This document shows positions 1-29,714 of a stretch of 36,430 nt of DNA, in pieces. Origin of the DNA: Thiomargarita sp. (GTDB lineage: Bacteria > Pseudomonadota > Gammaproteobacteria > Beggiatoales > Beggiatoaceae). The notes beneath the pieces were generated by a model that worked only from the letters and a program-made list of their open reading frames with translations, had not been told where the DNA came from and made no database searches. Location of the stretch: NCBI GenBank assembly GCA_020726335.1, contig DYSU01000021.1, forward strand, positions 1-36,430, written 5' to 3'. Position 1 is the first letter of the stretch. The number at the start of each line of letters is the position of its first letter. A program made the position numbers and the translations under genes.

Positions 1-789
1 CAGGCGATGAACCGTTTGTTGTTGGAAGCTGAATTGCACCATGCTTTGATTCGCAACGAACTGGTGTTGTATTATCAGCCGCAATACGAACTGAAAAGCG
101 GGCGTTTCATCGGCGCAGAAGCCTTGATTCGCTGGCAACACCACAAACGAGGCTTGATTGCGCCCAATGACTTCATCCCGATTGCCGATGAATCGGGGCT
201 GATTTTACCCATTGGCGAATGGGTGTTGTACACCGCTTGCCAACAAGCCAAACATTGGCTGGATTGCGGTTTGGCTTTAGAGTGCATTTCCATCAATTTA
301 TCAGGCTTGCAAATTCAACGCGGCAATATTGTTGATTTAGTAGGAAAAATTTTGGCTGACACCCGTTTGCCGCCCCGTTATTTGGAATTGGAAATTCTCG
401 AAACCTATATCATGCAACACGTCGAACGTGATATGGACACGTTAGTGGCATTGCGTGAGCTGGGTGTTAAACTGGCGATTGATGATTTTGGCACGGGTCA
501 ATCTTCCTTGGCTTATCTCAAGCGGTTGCCCGTCGATAAACTCAAAATTGACCGCGCTTTTGTCATGGGTATTCCCAATGATGAAGACGATGTGGCAATT
601 ATCACCACCATCATCACCTTAGCCCATGCCATGCGTCTGACGGTGATTGCCGAAGGGATTGAAACCGAAGCCCAAGCCCAATTTTTAAGCCAATTGGGTT
701 GCGACCAAGCGCAAGGGTTCCATTATAATCCGCCGCTGGATGTCAACACTTTTACACAAATGTCTCAACAATTTCTCCGTATGTTGTGA
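1..789 (+). CDS. EAL-domain c-di-GMP phosphodiesterase, 5'-truncated by the window edge
   Basis: This is the C-terminal part of a cyclic-di-GMP-specific phosphodiesterase, which hydrolyses c-di-GMP to pGpG. The frame is open to base 1, and the Met at base 7 is probably internal: the preceding codons read Q-A, and the text after it (RLLLEAELHHAL) is the linker normally found between GGDEF and EAL domains. Counting from that Met, the EAL signature is E38-A39-L40 followed by IRW, the SINLS Asn is N97, the double-Asp loop DDFGTG is at 159-164, the catalytic Lys is K180 and AEGIET is at 215-220. All metal- and substrate-binding positions I can identify are present, so it should be active. One deviation is EILE where EITE is usual. 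What lies upstream (GGDEF, PAS or sensor domains) cannot be seen. dapB follows after 112 bases with its own likely promoter. Confidence 0.93.
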   Translation, partial: QAMNRLLLEAELHHALIRNELVLYYQPQYELKSGRFIGAEALIRWQHHKRGLIAPNDFIPIADESGLILPIGEWVLYTACQQAKHWLDCGLALECISINLSGLQIQRGNIVDLVGKILADTRLPPRYLELEILETYIMQHVERDMDTLVALRELGVKLAIDDFGTGQSSLAYLKRLPVDKLKIDRAFVMGIPNDEDDVAIITTIITLAHAMRLTVIAEGIETEAQAQFLSQLGCDQAQGFHYNPPLDVNTFTQMSQQFLRML

Positions 790-1788: not shown

Positions 1789-4443
1789 ATGAAATTCCAA
1801 CAACATTTCATCAAGCCATTGTTGATTACCAGCGTGGTGTTGGGTTTGCTGACTCTGGCAGGGGTTTATCCACAACAATACCAACAAAAACAACAAGTTG
1901 TTTTAAAGATGGCTTTGTTGCGCGACAGCGTTAAAACAGCCAGCATTCACGCACTAGAAGCTAAAAATGCCGCTGCTGCATTGACTGTCTCCAATCAATT
2001 GATGAACGCCCATCTGTTGAGCAACGCAGGTTTGTTGTATGCCGATGGTCAATTGTTGGCAGGCACCGTGCCGTTGTCGCATTTGGCTAACATTCCCTTT
2101 GATCAAATAAAATTGCATATCGACCAACAGGCGATTTTATCGGTGCAACCTTTGAAAAATGCCCAAGGTCAAATCAAAGGTTGGTTGTATTTACAGCAAA
2201 AAGCGCACGATTATCAGCGGGCATTTTGGCGCAGTGTGTGGGTGGCTGTGTTGTTGCTGGTGGCCAGTTGGGCAATTATCGCCGCTGTTTTGTGGTTTTG
2301 GACAAAACAATTGTTTTTGCCGCTGTCGCATTTTTTAACCACTTTGCCCCAGTGGCTGGCGGACAAAAATTACACTGCGCGCCTGCCAAATGCCGTTTCA
2401 CAGCCACAAGAATGGCTGATGTTATCGCAAGCCATCAATCCTTTGTTGGCAACCATTGAACAACAACACGACGCTTTGCAACGGGCTGAACAAGCCACGG
2501 CCACCCATGATGCCGCCAAATCGCAGTTTTTAGCCATCATGAGCCATGAAATTCGCACGCCAATGAATGGGGTGATGGGCATGACAGAATTATTGCTGGA
2601 TACCCAGCTCAACGAGAGGCAACAACAAATCGTTGAAACCATTCACATTTCCAGTCTTTCCTTGTCTTCAATCATCAATGATATTTTGGATTTTGTCCAT
2701 ATTGAATCGGGTTCTGTGACCTTGCATGAGGAAACTTTTGATGTTTATAAACTGCTTGAAGAAGTGGTGGCTTTGTTTGCAGGCGCGGCACAACGGAAAA
2801 ATTTAGAACTCATCACCTATATTCCTGACCGTTTTCCCTTGGAGTTGCGCGGTGCAGAAGGGCGGTTGCGGCAAGTGTTGTCCTGTTTATTGGCCAATGC
2901 CATTAAATTCACCGACAATGGCGAAATTATGTTGCGGGTGTTGTGTGTGGGCGAAAATGAGCAGTTTATCCAATTGGGCATTGAAATTGAAGACACGGGC
3001 ATTGGCATCGCACCGCAGATGTTGCAAAACCTGTTTAAACCCTTCAATCAAGTGGACAGCACCTATAACCGCCGTTATGGTGGCACAGGTTTGGGATTGG
3101 CCATTGCCAAACATTTGGTGGTGCGCATGGGGGGTGACATCGGTGCGCGCAGTGATTACGGTCACGGTTCAACTTTTTGGTTTACCGTTAAATTGGCCAA
3201 ACCCGCCTACAGTGTGACATTGGGGTTGAAAAAGCAAGAAAAACAATATTTTAAAAGCAAAAAACGGGTGTTGGTGGTTGAAGACAACCACAGCAATCAA
3301 ATCAATTTGAAACGCTATATTGAATCTTGGGGTTTGGCTTGTGATGTCGCATCGACCAGTGCCGAAGCGATGCAGTTGATCCAACAAGCACAACCGCCTT
3401 ATGCAATTGCTTTAATCAATTATGTGTTCAACGCAGACACGACTGGGGCGGCTGAACACATGCCCATGACAGGCATTGAGTTGATTGAAACCTTGAAACA
3501 AAATCCAGCGATTGCGCCCATGGCGTTTGTGTTGATGATCACCATCAATCAAACCTTATCGCTCAAGGCACATGATTTGCTTGAAGCGACTTTGATCAAG
3601 CCCATACGGCGCGATCGCTTATACAGTGTGTTACAACAATTGTTGGATGAACCGCAAGCCCTCCATCAGAAACAAAAGGCGAAGGAATTGGTTAAAATTA
3701 ATGCCAAAATTTTGTTGGTTGAAGACAACATCGTCAATCAACAGGTGTCAAAATTGATGTTGGCACAGTGGCATTGTCAAATGGATTTTGCGGGGGATGG
3801 TTTGAATGCCGTGAAAAAACTGGTCAATGAACGCTATGATTTGGTGTTCATGGATTGCCAAATGCCTGAAATAGACGGTTATGCCGCCACCCGCATTATT
3901 CGCCAACAAGAACAAAGTCAACGCAACCAACGCAACATCATCATCGCTTTGACCGCTCATGCCTTGAAAGGAGACAAAGCCTTGTGCTTGGCAGCAGGCA
4001 TGGATGATTATTTATCCAAGCCGTTTAATAAAGCCCAGATGCTGGCCATTTTGCAAAAATGGTTGCCAATCTCTGCTTTTATTTATAAAACTGAAGACGT
4101 ACCCCATGTTCAACACATCATTGATGACAAATGGCTGAGCCGCTTGGGTGATCTGCCGTTGATAACACAGGCTTTGTTGCAACAATACCAACAACACAGC
4201 GACCAATTGCTGGATTTATTGCGTAAAGCCGTGATTCAAATGGATTTTAAAGCCATACAAAACTTAAGTCACCGCTTAAAATCCAGCAGTGCCAATATCG
4301 GTGCTGAACGGTTAAGCCAAGAACTGGCCATTTTAGAGCAACAAGCGCAACAGCATCACACGGCTTTAATTTCAGGACAAATGTCGCGGATTGAAACCCA
4401 ATACACCTTATTATTCAGTGCATTAGAACGGAAGTGGAACTGA
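1789..4443 (+). CDS. BarA-like hybrid sensor histidine kinase (HisKA-HATPase-REC-REC-HPt)
   Basis: This is an inner-membrane hybrid kinase that should autophosphorylate and pass phosphate along an internal His-Asp-His relay. I place the start at ATG 1789 (884 residues), preceded by AGGTGGG, because residues from there begin with a membrane segment; a TTG at 1723 would add 22 unconvincing residues. Order: TM1 (about 9-27), a ~110-residue periplasmic region, TM2 (about 148-171), HisKA with phospho-His H253 in SHEIRTP, HATPase with the N-box Asn, DTGIGI and GGTGLGLAI boxes, REC1 (about 492-620), REC2 (about 640-758) with phospho-Asp D689 in MDCQMP, and a C-terminal HPt with H828 in [15 protein letters not shown]1 keeps its acidic pair and Lys, but the phosphorylatable Asp is replaced by Asn (N544, in ALINYVFN), so it is probably a pseudo-receiver. 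The periplasmic sensor matches no family I recognise. The next gene starts 4 bases after the stop. Confidence 0.93.
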
Positions 4444-4447
4444 AGCT

Positions 4448-5524
4448 ATGCCAAAACGCACCATCATGATTGTGGATGATGAATTGAGTATGCGCTTGCA
4501 TTTGCGGGCAATGTTGTTGGATGAAGCCTATCATTTGCTGTTTGCCAATGGCGCGCAAGAACTGTTTGCCAAAATTGATGAACACGCGCTGGACTTGATT
4601 ATTTTAGATGTGGTCATGCCCGATGTGGATGGGTTAGAAGTGTGCAGACGCTTGAAAAACAGCCGTCAATGGCAACACATTCCTGTGATTTTGACCACGG
4701 TGTTAAACGCGCAAGAGGTATTAGAGAAAGGGATAGAAGCGGGCGCAGATGATTATTTACAAAAACCTGTCAATAAATTGGAATTGCGCGCCCGCGTGCG
4801 TTCCATGTTGCGCATCAAACAGCAATATGACGCACTCAACAACATGTTGCATTTGCGCGAAGAGTTGTCCAACATGATTGTCAACAACATGGCCGCGCCG
4901 ATTTTATCGGTGTTGTTGCACAGCAATTTATTAGCCAGTAAAATCAATGACAAAGAACAGCGCACCCACATTGAACATGTCAAGCTGGCGGCTGAACGCT
5001 TAGATGACTTGGTCAACGACATGTTGACCGCCGCTAAAATGGAAGCGTACCACCTTAAAATTTCTCCTGAAATCATTAACTTAAATCAACTTTGTCGCCA
5101 AGTAAAAAAAAATTTTCAAGTCTATGCCCAATTTAAAACCGTGCAAATCAATGTGTCTATGCCGGGCGAACCTTTGGAAATGCGCATAGACCGCAATTTG
5201 TTTTATCGGGTATTGGCCAATTTACTCACCCATTGTTTGAATGCTGCCCCCGCCCACAGTGAGGTGAATTTGTCTGTGACCGCGATTAAAATGGGGACAC
5301 AACGTCATTGTCGGGTTCAAATCAGTGATCAAAGCCAAGGCATTGACAAAAATATTCATCCGTACATTTTTGATAAATATGCCGTGGTCAAATTGCAAAA
5401 ACAAGGGATTCATCAAGTGGGTTTGGGTTTGTCGTTTTGCAAAATGGCGTTGGATGTGCAAGGCGGTAAAATCAGTATTAAAAACAATACACCACACGGC
5501 ACGGTGTTTGTGGTGGAAATATAG
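4448..5524 (+). CDS. Receiver protein fused to a degenerate histidine-kinase module
   Basis: The 358-residue soluble protein starts with a canonical receiver domain: acidic pair D10-D11, phospho-Asp D54 in ILDVVMP, and K106 in QKPVNK. A short helical linker leads to a HisKA-like dimerisation helix and a HATPase-like fold ending in QVGLGLSFCKMAL (about 323-335). Two catalytic hallmarks are missing. In related receiver-kinases the helix reads MIVHD; here it is MIVNN, so the phospho-acceptor His is Asn (N146). The N-box Asn is also gone (NLLTHCLN, with His at 262). I infer it receives phosphate at D54, probably from the upstream hybrid kinase, and uses the kinase-like part for dimerisation, nucleotide binding or protein contact rather than phosphorylation. 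The 4-base spacing to the upstream stop implies translational coupling. Confidence 0.9.
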   Translation: MPKRTIMIVDDELSMRLHLRAMLLDEAYHLLFANGAQELFAKIDEHALDLIILDVVMPDVDGLEVCRRLKNSRQWQHIPVILTTVLNAQEVLEKGIEAGADDYLQKPVNKLELRARVRSMLRIKQQYDALNNMLHLREELSNMIVNNMAAPILSVLLHSNLLASKINDKEQRTHIEHVKLAAERLDDLVNDMLTAAKMEAYHLKISPEIINLNQLCRQVKKNFQVYAQFKTVQINVSMPGEPLEMRIDRNLFYRVLANLLTHCLNAAPAHSEVNLSVTAIKMGTQRHCRVQISDQSQGIDKNIHPYIFDKYAVVKLQKQGIHQVGLGLSFCKMALDVQGGKISIKNNTPHGTVFVVEI

Positions 5525-5550
5525 TGTGCTTTTGCTTACATGGGTAGAAC

Positions 5551-8238
5551 ATGGCAATCAATCATAAGATAAAAATTCGTCCGCGCTCGGGTTCAGGACG
5601 CTATGGGGTCAATTTCTCCTTAGAAGCCCATATGACTGTGGTGGGGTTTTGTGTGTTTTTATTTATGTGGGCGATTCATGTTTGGGGCGTGATGGAGCCT
5701 TTTGAATTAAGCGTTTATGATATGTTGATGCGCAACCGTCCCAGCATAGAGCCTGACCCCACGATTCTCATCGTTGGCATCACCGAAGAAGACATTCAAG
5801 CGCGCAAACAATGGCCGTTTAGCGATGAAATCATGGCCAGAACCCTCAAAATTTTGAACGAGATGCGCCCTTCGGTGTTGGGTTTGGATGTACACCGTGA
5901 TTTTCGCCGTCCACCCGGAGAAGATGCGTTTATCGCTGAACTGGCCAAACCCAATGTGGTTGCGATTCATAAAATCGGCGACCCTTATGTCAAAGCCATC
6001 CAAGGCCCAGAAAATATGCCCGATAACCGCTTGGGTTTCAATGATTTGGTGATGGACGGTGACAACGTGATTCGCCGCAGTTTATTGTTTGCCGACAACC
6101 AACAAGGCAAAACCGTGCCTTCATTTGCGTGGCAACTGGCGTTTCATCACTTCAAACAAAAAAACATCGTGCCTTATCCCGATAAAGAACAACGCGGGGT
6201 GATTCATTGGGGCAACGCCACTTTCAGCCAATTAAAACGCAATGATGGCGGTTATCAACTGCCTGAAGACAATGGTTTTCAAATTTTGCTCAACTACCGC
6301 CCAATTGAAAAAAACGACCGTGACAGCAGTGCAGCCAAGATCATTAACTTTAATAAAATAAGGCAGTTATATGATGAAAACCCTGAAAAACTGCGCCAAA
6401 TGGTGACAGGCAAAATCGTCTTGATTGGCACCACAGCGGTCAGCCTCAAAGATGTGTTTTATACCCCCTATACCAGCAACCACAAAAAAACCGCTGAAGG
6501 CAAAGAAAGCCGTCATATGTCGGGCGTGGTGGTACATGCCAATATTCTCAGCCATTTGCTCAGTGCCATCAGCCATGGCAACAGCCCATCAACACCCCAA
6601 GCGACGGTGTTTGATTTTTGGCCTGAAGGTTATGAATGGACATTGTTGTTTGTTTGGGTATTGCTGGGTGCGGTTTTGGTTTGGTCAATGCAAAGCCTGA
6701 TTAAATTTCTGTTGTTCGGTTTTTTGCTGATGAGCCTTGATGTTTTTGCCTCAATTCATTTATTCAATCAAGGTTTATGGATACCCATTGTCACACCGTT
6801 GGTGGGTTTCTTCTTCAGCATAGGCTGGGTGTTTGCCGCCAAAGTCAGCTACAACGCCAATTATGACGGTTTAACGGGCTTGCCCAACCGCCGTTTATTG
6901 GTCAAACGGGTGAGACAATTGCAACGGCGGTCATGGTTCAGTTTGCCCGACTTCAATACTGAACTTGACAAACCAAAAGAAGCCGACATAGACAAACTCA
7001 ACGGTGCCATCTTGTTGTTGGATTTGGAAAGCTTCAAAGTCATCAACGCCGTGTTGGGGCGTGAAGTGGGCGACCAATTATTGATGCGTTTTACCAAACG
7101 CTTGATTTCAATTTTGGATGATATTCCACACGAATACAGTTTGGCACGTTTGGGCGGCACTGAATTTGGCATTTTATTGCGCAACCCGCCGCACAAACAA
7201 GCGTTGGTTGATTTGGCCAACGAAATTTTACACCAAATGCACGGCCCGTTTACCTTAAACGGTGAAGACGTGTTTGCCGTGGCCAACATCGGTATTTCTC
7301 TTATTTATCCCAATGAAAACCGTGACTTACTGCAAGATGCCCATGCGGCCATGAACCAAGCCAAAGCCTTGGGCAAACACAGCCCCGAAGTGTTTGAACA
7401 TGCGATGACCGCCAGCGCAGTGGCTAATTTCCAATTAGAGCGCGATTTGCGCCAAGTGATTGCCAAAGGCTTGATGGGCAAAGATTCTGTGCCGTATTTA
7501 CCTGATTTCCCTGTGTATTATCAACCCTTGATTGATTTAAAAACGGGCAAAATTGGCGGTTTTGAAGCTTTGTTGCGTTGGATTCATCCCAAACGCGGTT
7601 TGGTCTCGCCCTATGAATTCATTCCCGTGGCGGAAGAAACAGGGTTGATTGTTCCCATCGGCGAATGGGTGTTGCAACAAGCGTGTAAACAGATGTTGCT
7701 TTGGCAAGAAAAAAACCCGCATGATCATGATTTAATCATCAGCGTCAATTTATCAGGCAAACAATTTTTGCAAGAAAATTTACTGAATAAAATCGCCGAA
7801 ATCATTGAAGACACCGGCTTTAATCCACACAATTTGAAATTGGAAATCACCGAAACCGTGGTAATGGACGATTTTGAAACCACTTTGCGCATTCTCAAAG
7901 CCTTGCGCAAAATGGATGTTCACCTCAGCATTGATGATTTTGGCACAGGCTATTCTTCGCTGTCGTATCTCACCCGGTTGCCTGCCAACACTTTGAAAGT
8001 GGATCAATCTTTTGTCCGCCGTTTGTTTGAACACCAAAAAGAAACCGCGATTGTTGAAGTGGTGGTCGATTTGGCACATAAATTATCCATGGATGTGTTG
8101 GCCGAAGGCATTGAAACCCAAGAACAATTGGCCAAATTGCGTGAGCTGGGTTGTGAATACGGCCAAGGCTATTTATTTGCCAAACCTTTGCCGATTCCCG
8201 AGGCAGAAGCGTTGTTGATGTCTAACCCCACATGGTAA
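5551..8238 (+). CDS. CHASE2-GGDEF-EAL membrane protein, likely c-di-GMP phosphodiesterase
   Basis: This 895-residue inner-membrane protein senses a periplasmic signal and likely degrades c-di-GMP. A first TM (about 29-47) precedes a periplasmic CHASE2 domain (about 50-340, with the typical ELSVYDMLMRNRP opening and GKIVLIGTTA strand). Three TM segments follow (about 362-379, 383-402 and 409-430), then GGDEF (about 436-615) and EAL (about 625-890). The GGDEF signature is degenerate, reading GGTEF (535-539), and the usual guanine-contacting Asp after FK-x-IN is Ala, so cyclase activity is unlikely; it may bind GTP as a regulator. The EAL domain looks intact: E672-A-L, SVNLSG, EITET, DDFGTG (795-800), AEGIET (851-856). 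It lies 26 bases after the receiver-pseudokinase gene, so the three signalling genes probably form one operon with this enzyme as an output. Confidence 0.95.
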   Translation: MAINHKIKIRPRSGSGRYGVNFSLEAHMTVVGFCVFLFMWAIHVWGVMEPFELSVYDMLMRNRPSIEPDPTILIVGITEEDIQARKQWPFSDEIMARTLKILNEMRPSVLGLDVHRDFRRPPGEDAFIAELAKPNVVAIHKIGDPYVKAIQGPENMPDNRLGFNDLVMDGDNVIRRSLLFADNQQGKTVPSFAWQLAFHHFKQKNIVPYPDKEQRGVIHWGNATFSQLKRNDGGYQLPEDNGFQILLNYRPIEKNDRDSSAAKIINFNKIRQLYDENPEKLRQMVTGKIVLIGTTAVSLKDVFYTPYTSNHKKTAEGKESRHMSGVVVHANILSHLLSAISHGNSPSTPQATVFDFWPEGYEWTLLFVWVLLGAVLVWSMQSLIKFLLFGFLLMSLDVFASIHLFNQGLWIPIVTPLVGFFFSIGWVFAAKVSYNANYDGLTGLPNRRLLVKRVRQLQRRSWFSLPDFNTELDKPKEADIDKLNGAILLLDLESFKVINAVLGREVGDQLLMRFTKRLISILDDIPHEYSLARLGGTEFGILLRNPPHKQALVDLANEILHQMHGPFTLNGEDVFAVANIGISLIYPNENRDLLQDAHAAMNQAKALGKHSPEVFEHAMTASAVANFQLERDLRQVIAKGLMGKDSVPYLPDFPVYYQPLIDLKTGKIGGFEALLRWIHPKRGLVSPYEFIPVAEETGLIVPIGEWVLQQACKQMLLWQEKNPHDHDLIISVNLSGKQFLQENLLNKIAEIIEDTGFNPHNLKLEITETVVMDDFETTLRILKALRKMDVHLSIDDFGTGYSSLSYLTRLPANTLKVDQSFVRRLFEHQKETAIVEVVVDLAHKLSMDVLAEGIETQEQLAKLRELGCEYGQGYLFAKPLPIPEAEALLMSNPTW

Positions 8239-8242
8239 CTGT

Positions 8243-9478
8243 ATGAAAATATTACATACATCTGATTGGCATTTGGGACAACGCTTTATCCAAGCTGACC
8301 GCCAAGCCGAACAACAAAAGTTTTTAGATGAATTGCGCCACATCATCATCCAGCACAGCGTGGATGTGTTGTTGATTGCGGGCGATGTGTTTGACACCAG
8401 TTCACCACCCAATCATGCATTGCGCCAATATTACTGTTTTTTGAGCCAGTTGCATCACAGCCCCTGCCCGCATGTGATCATCATCGGCGGCAACCACGAT
8501 TCCCCTGCAACCTTGAACGCGCCCAAGTCTGTGTTGGCTCGTTTGAATGTCCATGTGGTCGGTTGCAGTCAATATGATAACCACGGCCAATGGCAAATAG
8601 ATAAAGAAATCATTGAATTAAAAGGTGTTGACGGCCAGTTACAAGCCGTGGTGGCTGCTGTGCCGTTTTTGCGTGACCGCGATTTGAAATACAGCAAAAG
8701 CGGCGAAACCGAATCACAGCGACAAGCCGCGATTCGCCAAGGTATTCAAGAACACTATCAACAACTTGCCGAACGCTTAAGCGATTATCCCTCCGTGCCG
8801 TTGATCGCCATGGGGCATTTATTCATAGCGAGCAGTTTGGTGGAAAGCGAAAAAGACATCCATTTAGGCAACCTTGGCCAAGTCAGCGTGGCGTGTTTGC
8901 CACCGCTGTTTGATTATGTCGCGCTGGGGCATTTACACCGCAACCAAAAAGTGGACGGTCAAAACCACATTCGCTATTGTGGCGCGCCGTTGCCGTTGAG
9001 TTTTGGCGAAGCAAATCAAAAAAAATCCGTGTTGTTGCTTGAATTCATGGGTAAAAAGTTGCAATCCATCACACCGTTGCCATTGCAATGTTACCGCCCC
9101 TTGTTGCGCTTTGACGGCGATATTGACTGCGTACAACAGCAAATTGCCCAAACACCGCCCATCACCAGCGATTTGCCCGCGTGGGCTGAAGTGCTGTTGC
9201 ACTGCGATACATTATCGTCTCAACTCAAGACCCAACTGGATAATTTGGCCAAAGAACGCAACATTGAGATTTTAAAAACCCAATTGCAACGTTCACAAAA
9301 CCCGTCTGTGCGGCCAATGTCGGCCACGTTGGCCGAGCTGTCGCCCATGGCGGTGTTTGAACAACGCTGTCAACAAGCGGCCAAAACAGAAGCAGAAATG
9401 ATTCAATTAAAACAAACGTTTATCGAATTACAAACTTTGGTTGATGAAGGTGCGTTCTCTGAAGAAAAAATCAGCTAA
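8243..9478 (+). CDS. sbcD: Exonuclease subunit SbcD (Mre11-type nuclease)
   Basis: SbcD is the metal-dependent nuclease of the SbcCD complex, which cuts hairpins and processes double-strand ends in the cytoplasm. The 411-residue length matches the family. The metallophosphoesterase motifs are all present: D8 and H10 in TSDWHLG, D48 in IAGDVFD, N84-H85-D86 in GGNHDS, H192 in MGHLF, and H230 and H232 in LGHLH. A capping domain and a helical C-terminus, likely for SbcC binding, follow. The start lies 4 bases after the preceding stop with no strong ribosome binding site, so it appears translationally coupled to the signalling operon. sbcC, which normally follows directly, is absent: the next gene is on the other strand. 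Confidence 0.97.
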   Translation: MKILHTSDWHLGQRFIQADRQAEQQKFLDELRHIIIQHSVDVLLIAGDVFDTSSPPNHALRQYYCFLSQLHHSPCPHVIIIGGNHDSPATLNAPKSVLARLNVHVVGCSQYDNHGQWQIDKEIIELKGVDGQLQAVVAAVPFLRDRDLKYSKSGETESQRQAAIRQGIQEHYQQLAERLSDYPSVPLIAMGHLFIASSLVESEKDIHLGNLGQVSVACLPPLFDYVALGHLHRNQKVDGQNHIRYCGAPLPLSFGEANQKKSVLLLEFMGKKLQSITPLPLQCYRPLLRFDGDIDCVQQQIAQTPPITSDLPAWAEVLLHCDTLSSQLKTQLDNLAKERNIEILKTQLQRSQNPSVRPMSATLAELSPMAVFEQRCQQAAKTEAEMIQLKQTFIELQTLVDEGAFSEEKIS

Positions 9479-18694: not shown

Positions 18695-21600
18695 ATGCTT
18701 AGAAAATTACAGCAGTTTTTCATCCCGATTTTGCTCAGTTTCATCACCGCTTGCAGTGGCGGCGATGCATTAGACCCTGAAGCACTCAAAGCCAAACAAA
18801 CGCCCACCAACGCGCAAGAAGTGACTCCCATCATTTCCAATACAGTCGCCGAATTAAAATTAACCGGTGCCAGCGTTGTGCCTGTGGGGCAAAACACCTA
18901 TTTCACCTTAACCGCCTTAAACGCAGGTGGCGCGCTCGTTCCCAACGCAACCATAACCGCCAGCGTGAGCGGCAAAGCGATCATCAACAATGCGCCTGCC
19001 ACTTCAGGTTCTGGCTCGGTTAATTTTTCCGTCAGCGACTCAATCGCTGAAACCGTGATGCTCAGCATTGTCAGTGGCGAGGTCAATTTATTGTTGCCCA
19101 TTTCCTTTGGCGGCCAAGTGTCGGCGCAAGTCATCGGCGGCGGCCAACCCGCCAATGGCACGTCAAAAGTGCAATTGGTGGCGCGTGCCTTGGACCATGC
19201 GGGCTTGCCGTTGGTTGCCCTACCCGTTTCTTTATCCTTTTCCACAGGCAGTTTTGCCGTGGCCACCAACGCATCAGGGAAAACCGATGCCAACGGTATT
19301 TTCTCCACCGACATCACCGACACCGTGGCCGAAACGTTGAGTGTAACCCCCATCATCGGCGGGGTACATGCCCAAAGCTTCAGCTTAACGTTCTCTGCCG
19401 TCGCTTTAGCCAAACCCCACAGCGTGACCTTGAGTTTGGGCAACAACAACGCCCTTGCTGGTGGGCAAGCCGCCGTCAGTATCACCGTGGTGGCGCGGGC
19501 TGAAGATGGCACACCGATTAAAGATGTGCCTGTCAGTTTATCCGTCAGCTCAGGCAGTGCCGTGTTGGCCAATGCATCGGGTCAAACCTCATTAAGCGGC
19601 GCATTCACCACCAGCATGACCAACACCGTGGCAGAAAGCGTTATCGTCACCCCCACCGCAGGCGGTGTGGTCGGTGATTCCAAACAAGCGATTTTTGTGT
19701 TGCCTTCAGAGGGGGTTGATAAAGCCAACACCGTCACCACCGTGGAATTATTTTTAAGCCGCAGCCAAGGCCTTTATGCCAACGGTCAAGACAGCGCGAC
19801 CATTACCTTGATTGCCCGCGGTGTCAACGGCGCGCCTGTGGCAGGCGTACCCGCATCATTGATATTGAGCGGCGGTTCAGCCAAATTGGCGATTGAAGCA
19901 GGCAACACCGACACCAGTGGCCGTTTTATCACCCAAATCACGGATTTACAAGTGGATACGTTCACCATCACGGGCGCGGTGGGCAATGCCCGCAGTACAC
20001 CCAAACAAATCCAATTTGTCGCGGTTGCGGTTGATAGCAACGTTGATGTCATACCCACCAACGTCGATTTAGTCATTTCCAATGACGGCCAATTGGCCAA
20101 TGGTCAAGCGGCGGTTAATTTAACCGTGGTGGTTAGGGACAACAAAAACACACCGATGTCGGGCGTGGATGTGGTCTTGTCCAGCAGTTCAGGCAGTGCG
20201 TTATTGGCCGCTGCCACAGGCAAAACAGGGGCAGGCGGCAGTTTTACCACCCAAATCACCAACACCGTGGCGGAAAAAGTCACCATCAATGCCAGTGCGC
20301 GTGGAATCAATGGCGCGCCCAAAACCGTGGAATTTATCGGTACCAAAGCGGTCAACGTCGCCTTGGTTTCTACCACCATCACCGACAACAACCGGTTAGC
20401 CAATGGCCAAGAAGCGACCACTTTAACCGTGATTGCCCGCGACAGCGAAAACCGTCCCGTTGAAGGGGCGCAAGTGATTTTAGTGTTTTCATCCGCTTAT
20501 GCCATTCCCGCCCAAGCCACGGGCCAAACCAGCGCGGGCGGCAGTTTTGTCACCACCATCAGCGACACCATGGCAGAAACCTTTACCGTGGTGGCGCGCA
20601 TTGGCGATAAAGCCAGCGCACCCCAATCCATCACATTTGAACCTTCGTCAACCACCACCCCCCCTGCGAAAATCACCACCACCGTGTCGCAAGATGGCCA
20701 AGCGGCAAACGGCGTGGCTGAAGTACAAGTGACCGTGATTGCCCGCGATGCCAACAACACCCCGTTGCAAAATGTGCCTGTCAGCTTGGCCACCAGCTCA
20801 GGTTCGGCCTTGCTCAACCCTGCCAGTGGCACCACGGGCGCGACAGGGGCATTTATCAGCAAAATCACCAACACCGTGGCTGAAACAGTGACCATAACCC
20901 CCACTGCGGGCGGTGTGACGGGCGCACCTGTGACCTTGTCGTTTGAAAACAGCCCAACAGGGGCAAAACCTGCGGCTGTGACCATCACCTCAGATGTTGA
21001 CAGTGCCAACGCCAATGGCAGCAGTAAAATCACTTTAACCGTGGTGGCCAGAAATCAAGTGGGTTCGCCCATTGTCGGTGCAGCGGTTTCAATTGCATTG
21101 AGCAGTAAAACCGGCACGCCCGCAGCCTTGTTTGATGCTGTTCTCGGCGCAACAGGGTTGACCAATGCCGCAGGCACGTTCAGCACGTCGTTGACCAGCA
21201 ATAAAGTGGAAGAATTGGTGGTAACGCCCACCGTGGCAGGGATTACAGGCACATCCAAAACCATTAAATTTGTTCAACCCGTCTTGGATGAAACCACGCC
21301 CGCCAGTTTGGAATTGTTGTCCAGCAGCCCACAATTGTTGTCTGAAGGCACCACCGATGGGATTAAAATCATCGCCTTGGTCAAAACAGGCGCAAACACG
21401 CCTTACAGCAAAGCGGATGTCAAATTTTCTGCCACCTCAGGCATGTTGCAAGTGACCAAAGGCACAACGGATGATGCAGGACAAGCCGAAGCCAAATTGA
21501 CCACCATCGGTGATCCCATCAACCGCACCATCACGGTCACAGCAACGGTGGGTACTTTAACAAAAACATTGGATATCAATGTGGTAGGAACTACATTGGG

Positions 21601-23026
21601 CATCACAGGCACGACAGCAGTGGTACAAAACAGCACGGTTAAATTTGCGGTTGAATTGAAAGATTCTTCAGGCAAAGGCATTGTCAATCACCCATTGAAG
21701 TTGCTGGTTGACAACAACAACGTGTTAAAAGGCGATGCCACGCGCACCACCGATGGCAACGGGCGGGTGGAACTGGAAGTGGAAGCCAAAGGCAGTGGTG
21801 CCAGCACCTTGAAAGCGGAAGTGGTGAATGCCACGCACATCAATACCACCCATCGCTTCAATATTGCCGATGACACGTTCACCATTGACCCTGCCAACAT
21901 CACTGCGGGTGTGCCGTTGGGGCAAGTGCAAACGTTTACGGTCACATGGCTCAAAAGCGGCGCGGCACAAGCCAATAAACAACTGAACATCTCGGCCACG
22001 CGGGGCGTGTTGGGTGCAACCATCATCGCCACCAATTTTGCAGGCCAAGCCTCGTTCAGCATCAGTTCCAACAACGCAGGCCCCAGCATTGTCACGGTCA
22101 GCGCAGTCGATGGGCCTTCCAACAGCGTCAGTTTTGACTTTATCGCCACCATCCCCAGCACCATGGAATTGCAAGCCAACCCCGGCACCATACCCACCAA
22201 TACCCCCGGTTCGGACACAGAAAAAAGCGAAATCATCGCCATTGTCCGCGATACCAACGGTAATTTAGTGAAAAATCAGCGGGTTGAGTTTACCGTCAAC
22301 GACATCACGGGCGGGCGCATCAGCCCTTCTTCGGCGTTGACTGACAGCTTTGGCCGCGCCACCACCTCTTATATTGCAGGCTCTTCATCCAGCGCGTCCA
22401 ATGGCGTAACCGTCAGCGCGCAGGTGATTGGCACGGGCATTTCGGCTTTTGTCAAATTGACGGTGGCACAACGCGGGGTGTTCATTTCGCTGGGAACAGG
22501 CAATGACATTGGCGACCTCAACACCACCACTTACAGGTTGCCATACACCGTTTTGGTGACTGACATCAACGGCGGTCCTGTCTCTGATGCCAAAGTGACG
22601 TTGAGCATCGTGCCACGCGCTTATGGCAAAGGTTTGTATTGCTATGATTTGACCAGCAAAGCATGGACGGCTAAAAACAGGTTCAATGCGTATGTCAATG
22701 AAGACAGCAATCAAAACGGCATTTTGGATGCGGGCGAAGATGCCAACAGTGATGGGATTTTGCAACCGGGCAACAACGCCACGTTGAGTGCCAGCACTTT
22801 GACAACTTCGACCAATGGTTTTGCTGATTTTGATGTGTTGTATCCCAAAGTCTATGCCACATGGGTGGAAGTGGCGTTAATCGCCAAAACCACGGTGGTT
22901 GGCACGGAAGACAGCACCACGGCGGTTTTTACCTTGCCATTTGCCAGCAAAGACAAAGGCACGGAAGAAGTTTCACCCGTGTTTAGAGTCAGCCCCTTTG
23001 ACACAGATGGCTATACCTGCTCATAA
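18695..23026 (+). CDS. Giant lipoprotein of ~13 tandem bacterial Ig-like (Big_1/invasin-type) repeats
   Basis: The 1443-residue protein opens with a lipoprotein signal peptide ending in FITAC (C20), so it should be anchored in a membrane, probably the outer one. From about residue 52 it consists of roughly 13 Ig-like units of about 100 residues. Units 2-8 share phrases of the form ANGQ..., TVVARD, PV-SL-SSGSA-L, G-T--GG-FTT, ITNTVAE and VTPTAGG, typical of the invasin/intimin Big_1 fold; later units diverge. Near the C-terminus is an Asp/Asn-rich loop, EDSNQNGILDAGED followed by ANSDGILQPG (about 1331-1354), resembling calcium-binding loops. Apart from C20 I see only two Cys, in GLYCYDL and at the end (YTCS), which may pair. 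No beta-barrel translocator, sortase motif or RTX array is present. A ribosome binding site (AAGGTAA) precedes the ATG. Position behind pilQ suggests a pilus-linked surface rod or adhesin, but that is inference. Confidence 0.9.
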   Translation: MLRKLQQFFIPILLSFITACSGGDALDPEALKAKQTPTNAQEVTPIISNTVAELKLTGASVVPVGQNTYFTLTALNAGGALVPNATITASVSGKAIINNAPATSGSGSVNFSVSDSIAETVMLSIVSGEVNLLLPISFGGQVSAQVIGGGQPANGTSKVQLVARALDHAGLPLVALPVSLSFSTGSFAVATNASGKTDANGIFSTDITDTVAETLSVTPIIGGVHAQSFSLTFSAVALAKPHSVTLSLGNNNALAGGQAAVSITVVARAEDGTPIKDVPVSLSVSSGSAVLANASGQTSLSGAFTTSMTNTVAESVIVTPTAGGVVGDSKQAIFVLPSEGVDKANTVTTVELFLSRSQGLYANGQDSATITLIARGVNGAPVAGVPASLILSGGSAKLAIEAGNTDTSGRFITQITDLQVDTFTITGAVGNARSTPKQIQFVAVAVDSNVDVIPTNVDLVISNDGQLANGQAAVNLTVVVRDNKNTPMSGVDVVLSSSSGSALLAAATGKTGAGGSFTTQITNTVAEKVTINASARGINGAPKTVEFIGTKAVNVALVSTTITDNNRLANGQEATTLTVIARDSENRPVEGAQVILVFSSAYAIPAQATGQTSAGGSFVTTISDTMAETFTVVARIGDKASAPQSITFEPSSTTTPPAKITTTVSQDGQAANGVAEVQVTVIARDANNTPLQNVPVSLATSSGSALLNPASGTTGATGAFISKITNTVAETVTITPTAGGVTGAPVTLSFENSPTGAKPAAVTITSDVDSANANGSSKITLTVVARNQVGSPIVGAAVSIALSSKTGTPAALFDAVLGATGLTNAAGTFSTSLTSNKVEELVVTPTVAGITGTSKTIKFVQPVLDETTPASLELLSSSPQLLSEGTTDGIKIIALVKTGANTPYSKADVKFSATSGMLQVTKGTTDDAGQAEAKLTTIGDPINRTITVTATVGTLTKTLDINVVGTTLGITGTTAVVQNSTVKFAVELKDSSGKGIVNHPLKLLVDNNNVLKGDATRTTDGNGRVELEVEAKGSGASTLKAEVVNATHINTTHRFNIADDTFTIDPANITAGVPLGQVQTFTVTWLKSGAAQANKQLNISATRGVLGATIIATNFAGQASFSISSNNAGPSIVTVSAVDGPSNSVSFDFIATIPSTMELQANPGTIPTNTPGSDTEKSEIIAIVRDTNGNLVKNQRVEFTVNDITGGRISPSSALTDSFGRATTSYIAGSSSSASNGVTVSAQVIGTGISAFVKLTVAQRGVFISLGTGNDIGDLNTTTYRLPYTVLVTDINGGPVSDAKVTLSIVPRAYGKGLYCYDLTSKAWTAKNRFNAYVNEDSNQNGILDAGEDANSDGILQPGNNATLSASTLTTSTNGFADFDVLYPKVYATWVEVALIAKTTVVGTEDSTTAVFTLPFASKDKGTEEVSPVFRVSPFDTDGYTCS
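19108..22900 (+). repeat. Array of ~300-315-bp tandem Ig-domain-coding repeats
   Basis: Units begin at approximately 19108, 19420, 19730, 20047, 20353, 20656, 20965, 21283, 21580, 21856, 22150 and 22470, giving a spacing near 300-315 bases (about 100 codons). Conservation is strongest in the first seven, where short DNA words also recur: ACCAACACCGTGGC, encoding TNTVAE, occurs near 19618, 20258 and 20866. This suggests expansion by unequal recombination or duplication, followed by divergence. Confidence 0.8.
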
Positions 23027-26425: not shown

Positions 26426-27292
26426 GTGCTGTTGGATTTTCTGTTTAAACCTTTTATCGAATTTGCTTTTATGCGCCGTGCCTTGGTCGCTTGTTTGGCG
26501 TTGTCGTTCAGTTACGGGGCTATCGGCGTGTTTTTGATGTTGCGGCGCATGAGTTTGGTCGGTGATGCCTTGTCGCACACCATTTTGCCGGGCGTGGCCA
26601 TGGGTTTTATGCTGTTTGGCACGTTTTGGGGCATGAGCTTGGGCGGCTTTGTGGTGGGTTTGTTGGTTGCGCTGTTTTCCAGTTGGGTCACGCGCACCAC
26701 AGGACAAAATGAAGATGCCAGTTTTGCCGCTTTCTATTTGATTTCATTGGCTTTTGGCGTGCTGTTGGTGTCGTATTACGGCACGGCAAATAATTTGATG
26801 GACATGCTGTTTGGCGCGGTGTTGGCCGTCGATGCCGACACTTTGCTGGTTTTGAGCGCGGTCAGCAGTTTGACTTTGATTATTTTGGCGGTTATTTATC
26901 GCCCGCTGGTGTTGGAGTGTTTTGACCCGCAGTTTTTGCGTACCATCGGCGGGCGCGGCGGTTTGATTCACAGCGTTTTTTTGCTGTTGGTGGTGATGAA
27001 TTTGGTGGCAGGTTTTCAATCGCTGGGCACGTTGATGGCGGTGGGTTTGTTGATGTTGCCTGCCACGGCGGCGCGTTTTTGGGCCAGCAGTTTGACCCAT
27101 TTGATGGGGGTGGCCAGTTTTTTGGCGTGCTTGTCAGGTTATATCGGTTTGTTGTTGTCTTATCATTTGGCCCTGCCGTCAGGACCCGCGATTGTATTGA
27201 CCGCAGGCGGCTTGTATTTTTTTTCGTTCAGTTTTGGCAAACAGCACAGTTTGTATCAAATGTGGCGTTATCGCCGTCATTTAGAGGCTTGA
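26426..27292 (+). CDS. ABC-3 family metal (zinc/manganese) transporter permease
   Basis: This is the membrane subunit of a zinc or manganese importer of the ZnuB/TroC type. The 288-residue protein is almost entirely hydrophobic with about eight TM segments. It carries the family phrases [28 protein letters not shown] (first part about 33-52, second about 52-60) and [18 protein letters not shown], plus the C-terminal [15 protein letters not shown]. The start is uncertain: GTG 26426 or TTG 26432 gives the N-terminus typical of the family (LLDFLFKPF), whereas the first ATG (26471) would cut it. The ATPase and binding-protein genes are not adjacent. The 3' end overlaps the convergent hybrid-kinase gene by 16 bases. 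Confidence 0.9.
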
Positions 27293-29676
27293 GCTTTGAC
27301 CAACGCGGCTTGAATTTCGCTGCGGCGGACGGGTTTGGTGATAAAATCGTTCATGCCCGCTTGTAGACATTTTTCTTGAAATTCATGCAAGGCGTGGGCG
27401 GTCATGGCGATGATATACGGCTGTTCCAACGGTTGTTGGCGAATTTGGCGCGTGGCTTCCAGCCCATCGATTTCAGGCATTTGAATGTCCATTAAAATCA
27501 CTTGATAACCGCGATTTTTGACGGCTGTCAAGACTTCACGGCCATTGTTGGCCACATCGGCGCGATAACCCAGCCCTTGCAAAATCAATAACGCCACTTT
27601 TTGGTTGACGATGTTGTCTTCGGCCAATAAAATGCGCAAGGGTTTAACTTCAGGTTGTGGCAATGTTTTGTGGCTGGGCGGCGTTTTTTTTGCGGGTAAG
27701 CCCAAGGTTTCTGACAAGACTTGAAACAATTTGTTTATGTTGATGGGCTTGTGTAAGTAATTGTCAAACAACAAATTATTCTCTTCTTCCTGCCATGCCA
27801 TCGAACCCAAATACACCAACAACACGATTTTCATGGATGACCATTGGGTTTGTTGTTTTATGCGTTGACACAAGAGTAAGCCGTTGATTTTAGGCATTTC
27901 CATGTCGATAAACACCAAATCATACGCCGTATTGCGCGCCAAAAAATCACTGGCAGTGCGAAAATAAGCCACTTGGAAAGGGCTGTTGGCAAATAATTGG
28001 CTGAACCAATCGCCAACATGCGGGTTATCATCCACCAAGGCAATGCGATAAGGTGTTGGGTGGCGGCCAAACGGCAAGGCTTGCTTAATCAAGCGTGCCG
28101 AAACGACGGGTGTTAAACGGACGGTAAAACTGAAATCAGACCCTTGGCCTGCTCGACTTTCAACTTCAAATTGGCCGTGCATCAGTTCACATAATTGTTT
28201 GCTGATGGTCAAGCCCAAACCTGTGCCACCATAACGGCGGGCGGTGGCGGTGTCTAATTGCTCAAAAGGATGAAACAAGCTGTGGATTTTTTCGGCAGAA
28301 ATGCCTACGCCGCTGTCACGAATCAAAAAATGTAAGGTAAGTTGTTGTAAATCTTGTTGTTTCAATGAAACGTAAATCAACACATCGCCTTTTTCGGTGA
28401 ATTTGACCGCATTGCTGAGTAAATTCAACAAAATTTGGCGCAAACGGGTCATGTCGCCAATCACCTCACGCGGCAAATCGTCGGTAAAAAAAACCAATAA
28501 ATCCAAGCCTTTGTTTGCCGCTTTGGGCATCATCAATTCCAGCGCATCTTCAATACAAGCCAATAAATCAAAGCGTTGCTGTTCCAGCTCTAATTTGCCC
28601 GCTTCGATTTTAGAAAAATCTAAAATTTCAGTCAGCAAAGCCAATAAAGTTTCACTGCTGGTTTGGATGGTTGCCGCATAGTCTTGTTGGCGCAAATCTA
28701 AATCGGTTTCCAACAGCAGTTCAGTCATGCCCACCATTGCATTCAGCGGGGTGCGAATTTCATGGCTCATGTTGGATAAAAAATTGCTTTTGGCGTGGTT
28801 GGCACAATCAGCGGCGGTTTTGGCTTGGGATAATTCGGCCACAGTCTGATTAAGGCGTTGATTAAGCTGTGATAATTCCAGATTGCGCTGTTTGAGCTGT
28901 TCGCTTAAGTGCTGTGAAGATTGGGTTTGTTGTTCAGCCACGGTTTCAGCTTGCATTTTGGCGTGGTAAAGTTGGTGCTGGCTTTGTTTGATTTGCCGAA
29001 ACCGCAAGCCAAAAAACAAGCCACTGCTGATAAACGCCACCAAAACCGTGGCCATCAGCCATAAATAGGCTTGTTTATAGGCGTGATGGGCCTGTTGCAT
29101 GGCTTGATTGGAGGTTATTATTTGATAATGCTTAAGTTCTTCTAATCCATCCAAGTTTTTTTGCTTGGTTAAAATGTCGCGGTATTCGTTGAAGATGTGT
29201 TTTTGGATGAACCAGCGGGCTTCTTGTTCATTTCCGTTAAGCAGTAAATTGATGATATGACTGCGCCATTCGGCGTATTTCATGGTCGCCAGATTGAGGC
29301 GTTCCAGTTGCCGCTGTTCTTCTTCACTTAAGGGATATTGTTCAAACTTTTCGCGCCGACTCATGAATTCACCGCCTAAATCAGTGAAATTTTGGGAAAA
29401 TTCGTCACGTTCAAAAGGGTCTTCGCTGATGATCATCGCATTGAGTGCCAATAACCGCCGCAAAAAAATGCTGTGCATCTCGATGATAAGAATCACTTTC
29501 GTGTTTTGCCGGGCAATGCGGTTAAGATGTTGTTTAACCTGTTGCATTTGTTGGTGACCAACAAAACCCATTCCCAACAACAGGCTAAACAAGGCCGTTA
29601 AAATGAAGATAATCTTCAGTTTACGGCGTATTGCTTGAGGGTGTAGCGGTTTTTGTTCATTGCGGTTTAAGAACAT
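27277..29676 (-). CDS. Hybrid sensor histidine kinase (periplasmic helical sensor, HisKA-HATPase-REC-REC)
   Basis: This is an inner-membrane hybrid kinase. I use the ATG at 29676 (799 residues); a TTG two codons upstream is also open. TM1 (about 21-41) and TM2 (about 203-224) enclose a ~160-residue, mostly helical periplasmic region that resembles four-helix-bundle sensors. A cytoplasmic coiled coil (about 230-290) leads to HisKA with H305 in SHEIRTP, HATPase with N-box N422, RDSGVGIS and [11 protein letters not shown], then REC1 with D591 in FIDMEMP and REC2 with D730 in LMDIQMP. Both receivers keep their acidic pairs and Lys. Unlike the kinase at 1789 it has no HPt domain, so a separate HPt protein would have to complete a relay. 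It lies 38 bases downstream of bamB, so readthrough from an envelope-assembly gene is likely. The signal is unknown. Confidence 0.94.
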
Positions 29677-29714
29677 CAGCAAGCCGTGCGAGATTATGCG
29701 TTAAGACCATACAC

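Follow-up and report, generated by a model that had tools for sequence, protein, structure and literature searches.

A receiver-fused kinase with an apparently dead catalytic core next to an HPt-bearing hybrid kinase in Thiomargarita sp.

Some members of histidine kinase phosphorelays, RcsD and RetS among them, act without autokinase function. RcsD has been termed a phosphotransfer protein (PMC12189002), and DivL of Caulobacter, which has no kinase or phosphatase activity, binds DivK~P (PMC4211667). The phospho-site is missing in 0.9% of sampled HisKA domains and in 2% of receivers (PMC12632262), and such losses are thus uncommon but not unheard of. In the lvrA-lvrB operon of Leptospira, which encodes a hybrid kinase and a receiver-fused kinase (Rec-kinase), LvrA phosphorylates LvrB at D56, and phosphorylation of the receiver (REC) shifts the LvrB helices and frees the catalytic and ATP-binding (CA) domain (PMC5863495, PMC13269768). 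Here we analyse a locus from Thiomargarita sp. in a 36,430-nucleotide stretch of DNA (the window), which forms contig 59 of a 97% complete assembly of 2.1 Mb. Three of its genes encode P1, a hybrid kinase with a histidine phosphotransfer (HPt) domain; P2, a Rec-kinase; and P3, a membrane protein of cyclic di-GMP (c-di-GMP) metabolism. The new point concerns P2, which by its motifs appears to be dead, whereas all known orthologs of this Rec-kinase look active.

A sequence-only reading of the locus had described P2 as a receiver joined to an apparently dead kinase core, and motif comparison with 28 orthologs bears this out. In Pfam, Response_reg and HATPase passed the cut-off, and HisKA fell short of it (22.8 vs 26.9 bits). 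The receiver is intact (D10, D11, D54, T84, K106) and is directly followed by the dimerisation and histidine phosphotransfer (DHp) domain and the CA domain. The H box (NNMAAP) contains no phosphorylatable His, and the N box (LLTHCLNAAP) and G1 box (DQSQGID) of the CA domain are degenerate. Relative to the orthologs, P2 carries the substitutions H146N, D147N, S149A, S150A, N262H, A263C, Y266A, G296S, P300D, A337V and H338Q, position 150 being Ser in 27 of the 28 orthologs and Thr in one. P2 would accordingly be missing the phospho-acceptor His, the Mg-ligand Asn, the first G1 glycine and the H+1 and H+4 residues, the last two of which serve in HisKA phosphatase chemistry. The G2 box (GLGL) and D294 are retained.

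Orthologs of P2 were present in 28 of 41 other genomes of the order, exactly one in each, at 42-52% identity. No P2 match at E<=1e-60 was found in the other 365 sampled genomes of the class, with the five top candidates scored per genome, and a separate search of named genomes returned distant Rec-kinases only, at ~30% identity over full length. On these searches the family appears to be confined to its order. The H box (HDM), the N-box Asn, G1 and G2 are kept in all 28 orthologs, with H146, D147, N262, G296 and P300 all present; P2 shares descent with these active-looking Rec-kinases. Of the columns invariant in the 28 orthologs, 13 of 52 are changed in the P2 kinase core and 2 of 26 in the P2 receiver, and the other orthologs depart from the rest at no more than 3 columns in either part. 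Within the catalytic boxes 10 of 28 invariant columns are changed in P2, compared to 3 of 24 outside them. By the kinase-core count of 13 in 52, the apparent death of the P2 core is far beyond chance. Mean identity to the orthologs was 55.5% for the P2 receiver, in the range of other divergent members, and 44.7% for the kinase half. The resulting difference of -10.8 points (kinase minus receiver) compares with a span of -2.9 to +12.2 in the other 28. This indicates that the kinase half sped up and the receiver did not. The terminal branch of P2 is long (1.6-1.8 changes per column). Sequencing error was rejected as the source of the changes; the frame is intact, and the 13 substituted kinase-core columns are separate ones.

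The AlphaFold2 model of P2 is a folded REC-DHp-CA chain with a mean predicted local distance difference test score of 82.5. A single continuous helix (residues 110-165) runs from receiver alpha5 into the DHp. In a Foldseek search with this model the best PDB match was LvrB, and RetS kinase regions were also among the matches. The likeness to LvrA-LvrB covers the adjacent genes with the hybrid kinase 5', the REC-DHp-CA partner and the topology of the continuous receiver-DHp helix. LvrB, however, is an active kinase (H161) that passes its phosphate to LvrC, whereas P2 is without the His, the N box and G1; P1 also carries an HPt, and P2 and LvrB are only about 18% identical. P2 resembles DivL in having a kinase core with the phospho-His replaced, and DivL acts through binding. 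Unlike P2, DivL has PAS domains and no receiver and keeps the other motifs, and its pseudokinase state extends across the alphaproteobacteria, whereas P2 looks dead in a single lineage. RcsD and RetS differ from P2 as membrane proteins without an N-terminal receiver, and RcsD has an HPt of its own.

P1 proved to be a hybrid kinase with HPt, as the sequence-only reading had it (Pfam HisKA, HATPase, two Response_reg, Hpt). A transmembrane-periplasmic-transmembrane region precedes HisKA, HATPase_c, the receivers and the HPt, and H253 in HisKA, D689 in receiver 2 and H828 in the HPt are intact and make up a complete relay set. Receiver 1 has lost its phospho-Asp; the corresponding position 544 is also non-Asp in five of the seven other members of the P1 clade, so this is an old pseudo-receiver. 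The clade comprises eight hybrid kinases (support 97/94), the other seven being 40-45% identical over the core. Within it the HPt tail is found only in P1, and the other seven proteins stop 1 to 31 residues past receiver 2. The genome encodes thirteen HPt domains, including that of P1, which means that P1 is not the sole possible donor to P2. Elsewhere in the same genome (L002, 1477-2951 of G000 contig 42), a stand-alone HPt gene (130 aa) is followed after 5 bases by a gene for a 358-aa receiver-kinase with intact motifs, a possible second HPt to Rec-kinase pair.

Gene neighbourhoods were mapped for 23 of the P2 orthologs and for 17 relatives of P1 or P3. P1 lies 4 bases 5' of P2 on the same strand, an LvrA-LvrB-like pair of hybrid kinase and Rec-kinase. 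Four of the eight P1-clade kinases lie directly 5' of a receiver-fused kinase gene. At L160, L173 and L176 (genomes G015, G004 and G030) the P1-clade kinase is directly followed by an intact REC-PAS-HisKA-HATPase gene, and at L173 (5001-11098) a gene with transmembrane, REC and HPt parts lies just 5' of the hybrid kinase and the REC-PAS-kinase, so that the elements of P1 and P2 are rearranged there. An ortholog of the REC-PAS-kinase found 3' of P1 relatives is missing from the window genome, where the best match covers the kinase part only (32%), and P2 is found at the corresponding position. At four of the 23 P2-ortholog loci (L112, L113, L116 and L117) another hybrid kinase (HisKA-HATPase-REC) lies 5' on the same strand, with a Ras-like small GTPase gene ahead of it, an arrangement conserved in two genera. 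This recurrence of hybrid kinase, HPt and receiver-fused kinase with different members is the best comparative support for a relay from P1 to P2. On motifs and gene context, phosphotransfer between the two is plausible.

We believe, at a probability of roughly 0.5, that P2 is a Rec-controlled kinase of LvrB-type architecture that has turned into a non-catalytic, phosphate-triggered binding switch. Its ancestor would have been a single-copy Rec-kinase of the kind that looks catalytically intact elsewhere in the order. The P2 lineage lost its phospho-His and Mg-binding Asn, along with the G1 box and the residues of phosphatase type, and kept the receiver and the helix joining it to the core. P1 would autophosphorylate at H253 and pass the phosphate through D689 and HPt H828 to D54 of P2, and phosphorylation of D54 may act along the continuous alpha5-signalling helix to rearrange the P2 dimer, by analogy with LvrB. 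A CA domain freed in this way would meet no phosphorylatable His and would probably lack an ATP-Mg site. Since P2 is predicted to be unable to autophosphorylate or to pass phosphate on, its output would have to be a binding event, gated by phosphorylation, as in DivL, RetS or HnoD of Shewanella.

Several observations weigh against such a switch. The P2 gene is absent from 13 of the 41 relatives and is therefore dispensable. The comparison includes a single genome of the genus and so provides no measure of selective maintenance. P1 and P2 adjoin each other in the window genome only, and the genome has twelve HPt domains besides that of P1. Changes in the kinase half of P2 are less conservative than the ortholog average, though above neutral (BLOSUM-positive changes 47%, compared to an ortholog mean of 59% and about 35-37% for neutral change), and the stop-free frame is only weakly unlikely under neutral drift (in a neutral simulation, P of no stop codon was 0.04 to 0.33 at 10-25% excess change). 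The main and serious rival, decay of the kinase gene, draws on the absences, on the less conservative changes and on this simulation; in it, the job of P2 was lost in a small genome, and the receiver is intact as the loss is recent or as it remains a harmless phosphate acceptor. The window genome is indeed smaller than most of its family (2 to 9 Mb). However, the reading frame is intact, and P2 keeps its receiver catalytic residues and 39 of the 52 invariant kinase-core columns, including F308, G320, G325, G327 and K332. Its changes cluster in the catalytic boxes and are more conservative than neutral ones, which speaks, weakly, for constraint that has relaxed or shifted rather than for free drift. 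In addition, the genome has three close receiver-kinase paralogs, the nearest to P2, and all of them keep intact motifs with HDL-type H boxes, so the kinase loss is specific to the P2 gene and does not reflect general genome decay. Taken together, we regard decay as rather unlikely; if it were the whole story, P2 would be a minor case of gene loss.

Alternatively, P2 might mainly draw phosphate from P1 or other HPts, as a sink or a competing acceptor, its pseudokinase half only keeping the receiver dimeric. The receiver is complete with no output chemistry apparently left, and single-domain and sink receivers are well known. Against this, the kinase half keeps its fold and its 44.7% identity, beyond the need of a dimerisation tag, and we consider a sink improbable.

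P3 matches its earlier description as a membrane phosphodiesterase with an inactive-looking cyclase domain (Pfam CHASE2, GGDEF and EAL; a GGTEF motif; a complete EAL set). Orthologs of P3 occur in six other genomes at 42-48% identity. The cyclase site reads GGTEF, GGSEF or GGNEF in seven of eight full-length orthologs and SEDEF in one, and none of the orthologs shown has GGDEF or GGEEF there. The inactive-looking cyclase domain is thus an old feature. The sequence-only reading had each of the three proteins losing one catalytic element; this is true of P1, P2 and P3 alike, but only the loss in P2 is specific to the lineage. Coupling between the loss in receiver 1 of P1 and that at the cyclase site of P3 was considered and rejected, both losses being widespread in relatives.

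The proposed function for the locus had been a dedicated three-protein c-di-GMP pathway, in which the P1 HPt phosphorylates P2 at D54 and P2 controls the P3 EAL enzyme by contact. The three consecutive genes are real: three open reading frames on the forward strand with intergenic gaps of 4 and 26 bases. The EAL motifs of P3 are intact, and there is a precedent in HnoD-HnoB of Shewanella (PMC6335343), where a protein with a receiver and a dead enzyme domain inhibits an EAL phosphodiesterase by direct interaction; HnoD differs in being a degenerate HD-GYP protein with no kinase core, and HnoB has a receiver, whereas P3 has none. In the HptB-HsbR-HsbA-HsbD system of Pseudomonas aeruginosa (PMC5085249), phosphate likewise passes from an HPt to a receiver-fused regulator and a c-di-GMP enzyme is controlled by protein contact, but that enzyme is a cyclase. 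Co-occurrence of the triplet in other genomes had been named as the refutation test for the pathway, and the triplet recurred in none of the 23 P2 and 17 P1/P3 neighbourhoods. No P1-clade or full-length P3 gene adjoins a P2 ortholog in the 23 mapped neighbourhoods, and the P3 orthologs in the six other genomes never adjoin P2 or P1. At nine P3-ortholog loci the upstream gene is LolA-like in four and DUF928 in two, which suggests that the usual partner lies on the periplasmic CHASE2 side. Furthermore, sbcD starts 4 bases past the end of P3, so the triplet is in fact a run of four genes; sbcD is probably co-transcribed with P3 but probably does not belong to the signalling unit. Tight spacing alone is therefore no mark of a signalling unit or of shared function. 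Of the original interpretation, the complete P1 relay, the complete P2 receiver and the recurrent pairing of hybrid kinase with Rec-kinase hold up, and the dedicated three-protein pathway, which we think improbable, does not. For the binding switch, P3 is a doubtful partner, suggested by gene position only; a different kinase or a response regulator is no less likely. Also improbable, in our view, is the full chain in which a hybrid kinase has acquired an HPt and drives a P2 shorn of kinase and phosphatase chemistry, which in turn gates the neighbouring CHASE2-EAL phosphodiesterase by contact. If true, this would be a phosphorelay of recent origin whose pseudokinase output connects directly to c-di-GMP.

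Table 1. Positions in the window of the P1-P3 genes, their diagnostic motifs and the adjoining sbcD gene.
Feature	Position	Strand	Basis or remark
P1, membrane hybrid kinase, 884 aa	1789..4443	+	Open reading frame, Pfam
P1 Asn544 codon, replacing the receiver-1 phospho-Asp	3418..3420	+	
P1 HPt phospho-His828 codon	4270..4272	+	
P2, receiver and HisKA-HATPase pseudokinase (apparent), 358 aa	4448..5524	+	Open reading frame, Pfam, ortholog alignment
P2 receiver phospho-acceptor Asp54 codon	4607..4609	+	Invariant in 28 orthologs
P2 degenerate H box, N146 N147 M A A (orthologs H D M S S)	4883..4897	+	
P2 degenerate N box, H262 C263 L N A266 (orthologs N A L Q Y)	5231..5245	+	
P2 degenerate G1 box, D294 Q S296 Q G I D300 (orthologs D-Q/E-G-x-G-I/V-P)	5327..5347	+	
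P3, CHASE2, transmembrane segments, GGDEF-type domain (GGTEF), intact EAL phosphodiesterase domain, 895 aa	5551..8238	+	
P3 GGTEF motif, residues 535-539	7153..7167	+	
P3 EAL motif, E672 A673 L674	7564..7572	+	Remaining EAL catalytic motifs present
sbcD (nuclease subunit)	8243..9478	+	4 bases 3' of P3

A promoter scan of the locus was uninformative, and terminators were at the shuffle mean. A convergent gene follows sbcD, with no sbcC directly 3' of it. At the other end of the window (1-789), a second c-di-GMP gene near the triplet, an EAL-domain gene cut by the contig start, lies just 5' of dapB. Further along, at 27277-29682 on the reverse strand, a gene for another hybrid kinase runs convergently to a gene for an ABC-3 family metal permease; the kinase has a 4HB_MCP sensor and, at its C-terminus, two receivers. 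The protein encoded at 18695-23026 (1443 aa) contains ten Ig-like domains of the Big_1 type and four Invasin_D3 domains; it has a full-length match (47% identity) in one relative only (G009) and is absent or partial in most relatives.

The well-studied pseudo-histidine kinase DivL is old, whereas the apparently dead P2 can be compared with active-looking orthologs within one order. With the P2 receiver as an internal control, the passage from Rec-kinase to non-catalytic switch becomes a testable question, and P1, at the same locus, is a hybrid kinase with an HPt where its close relatives have none.
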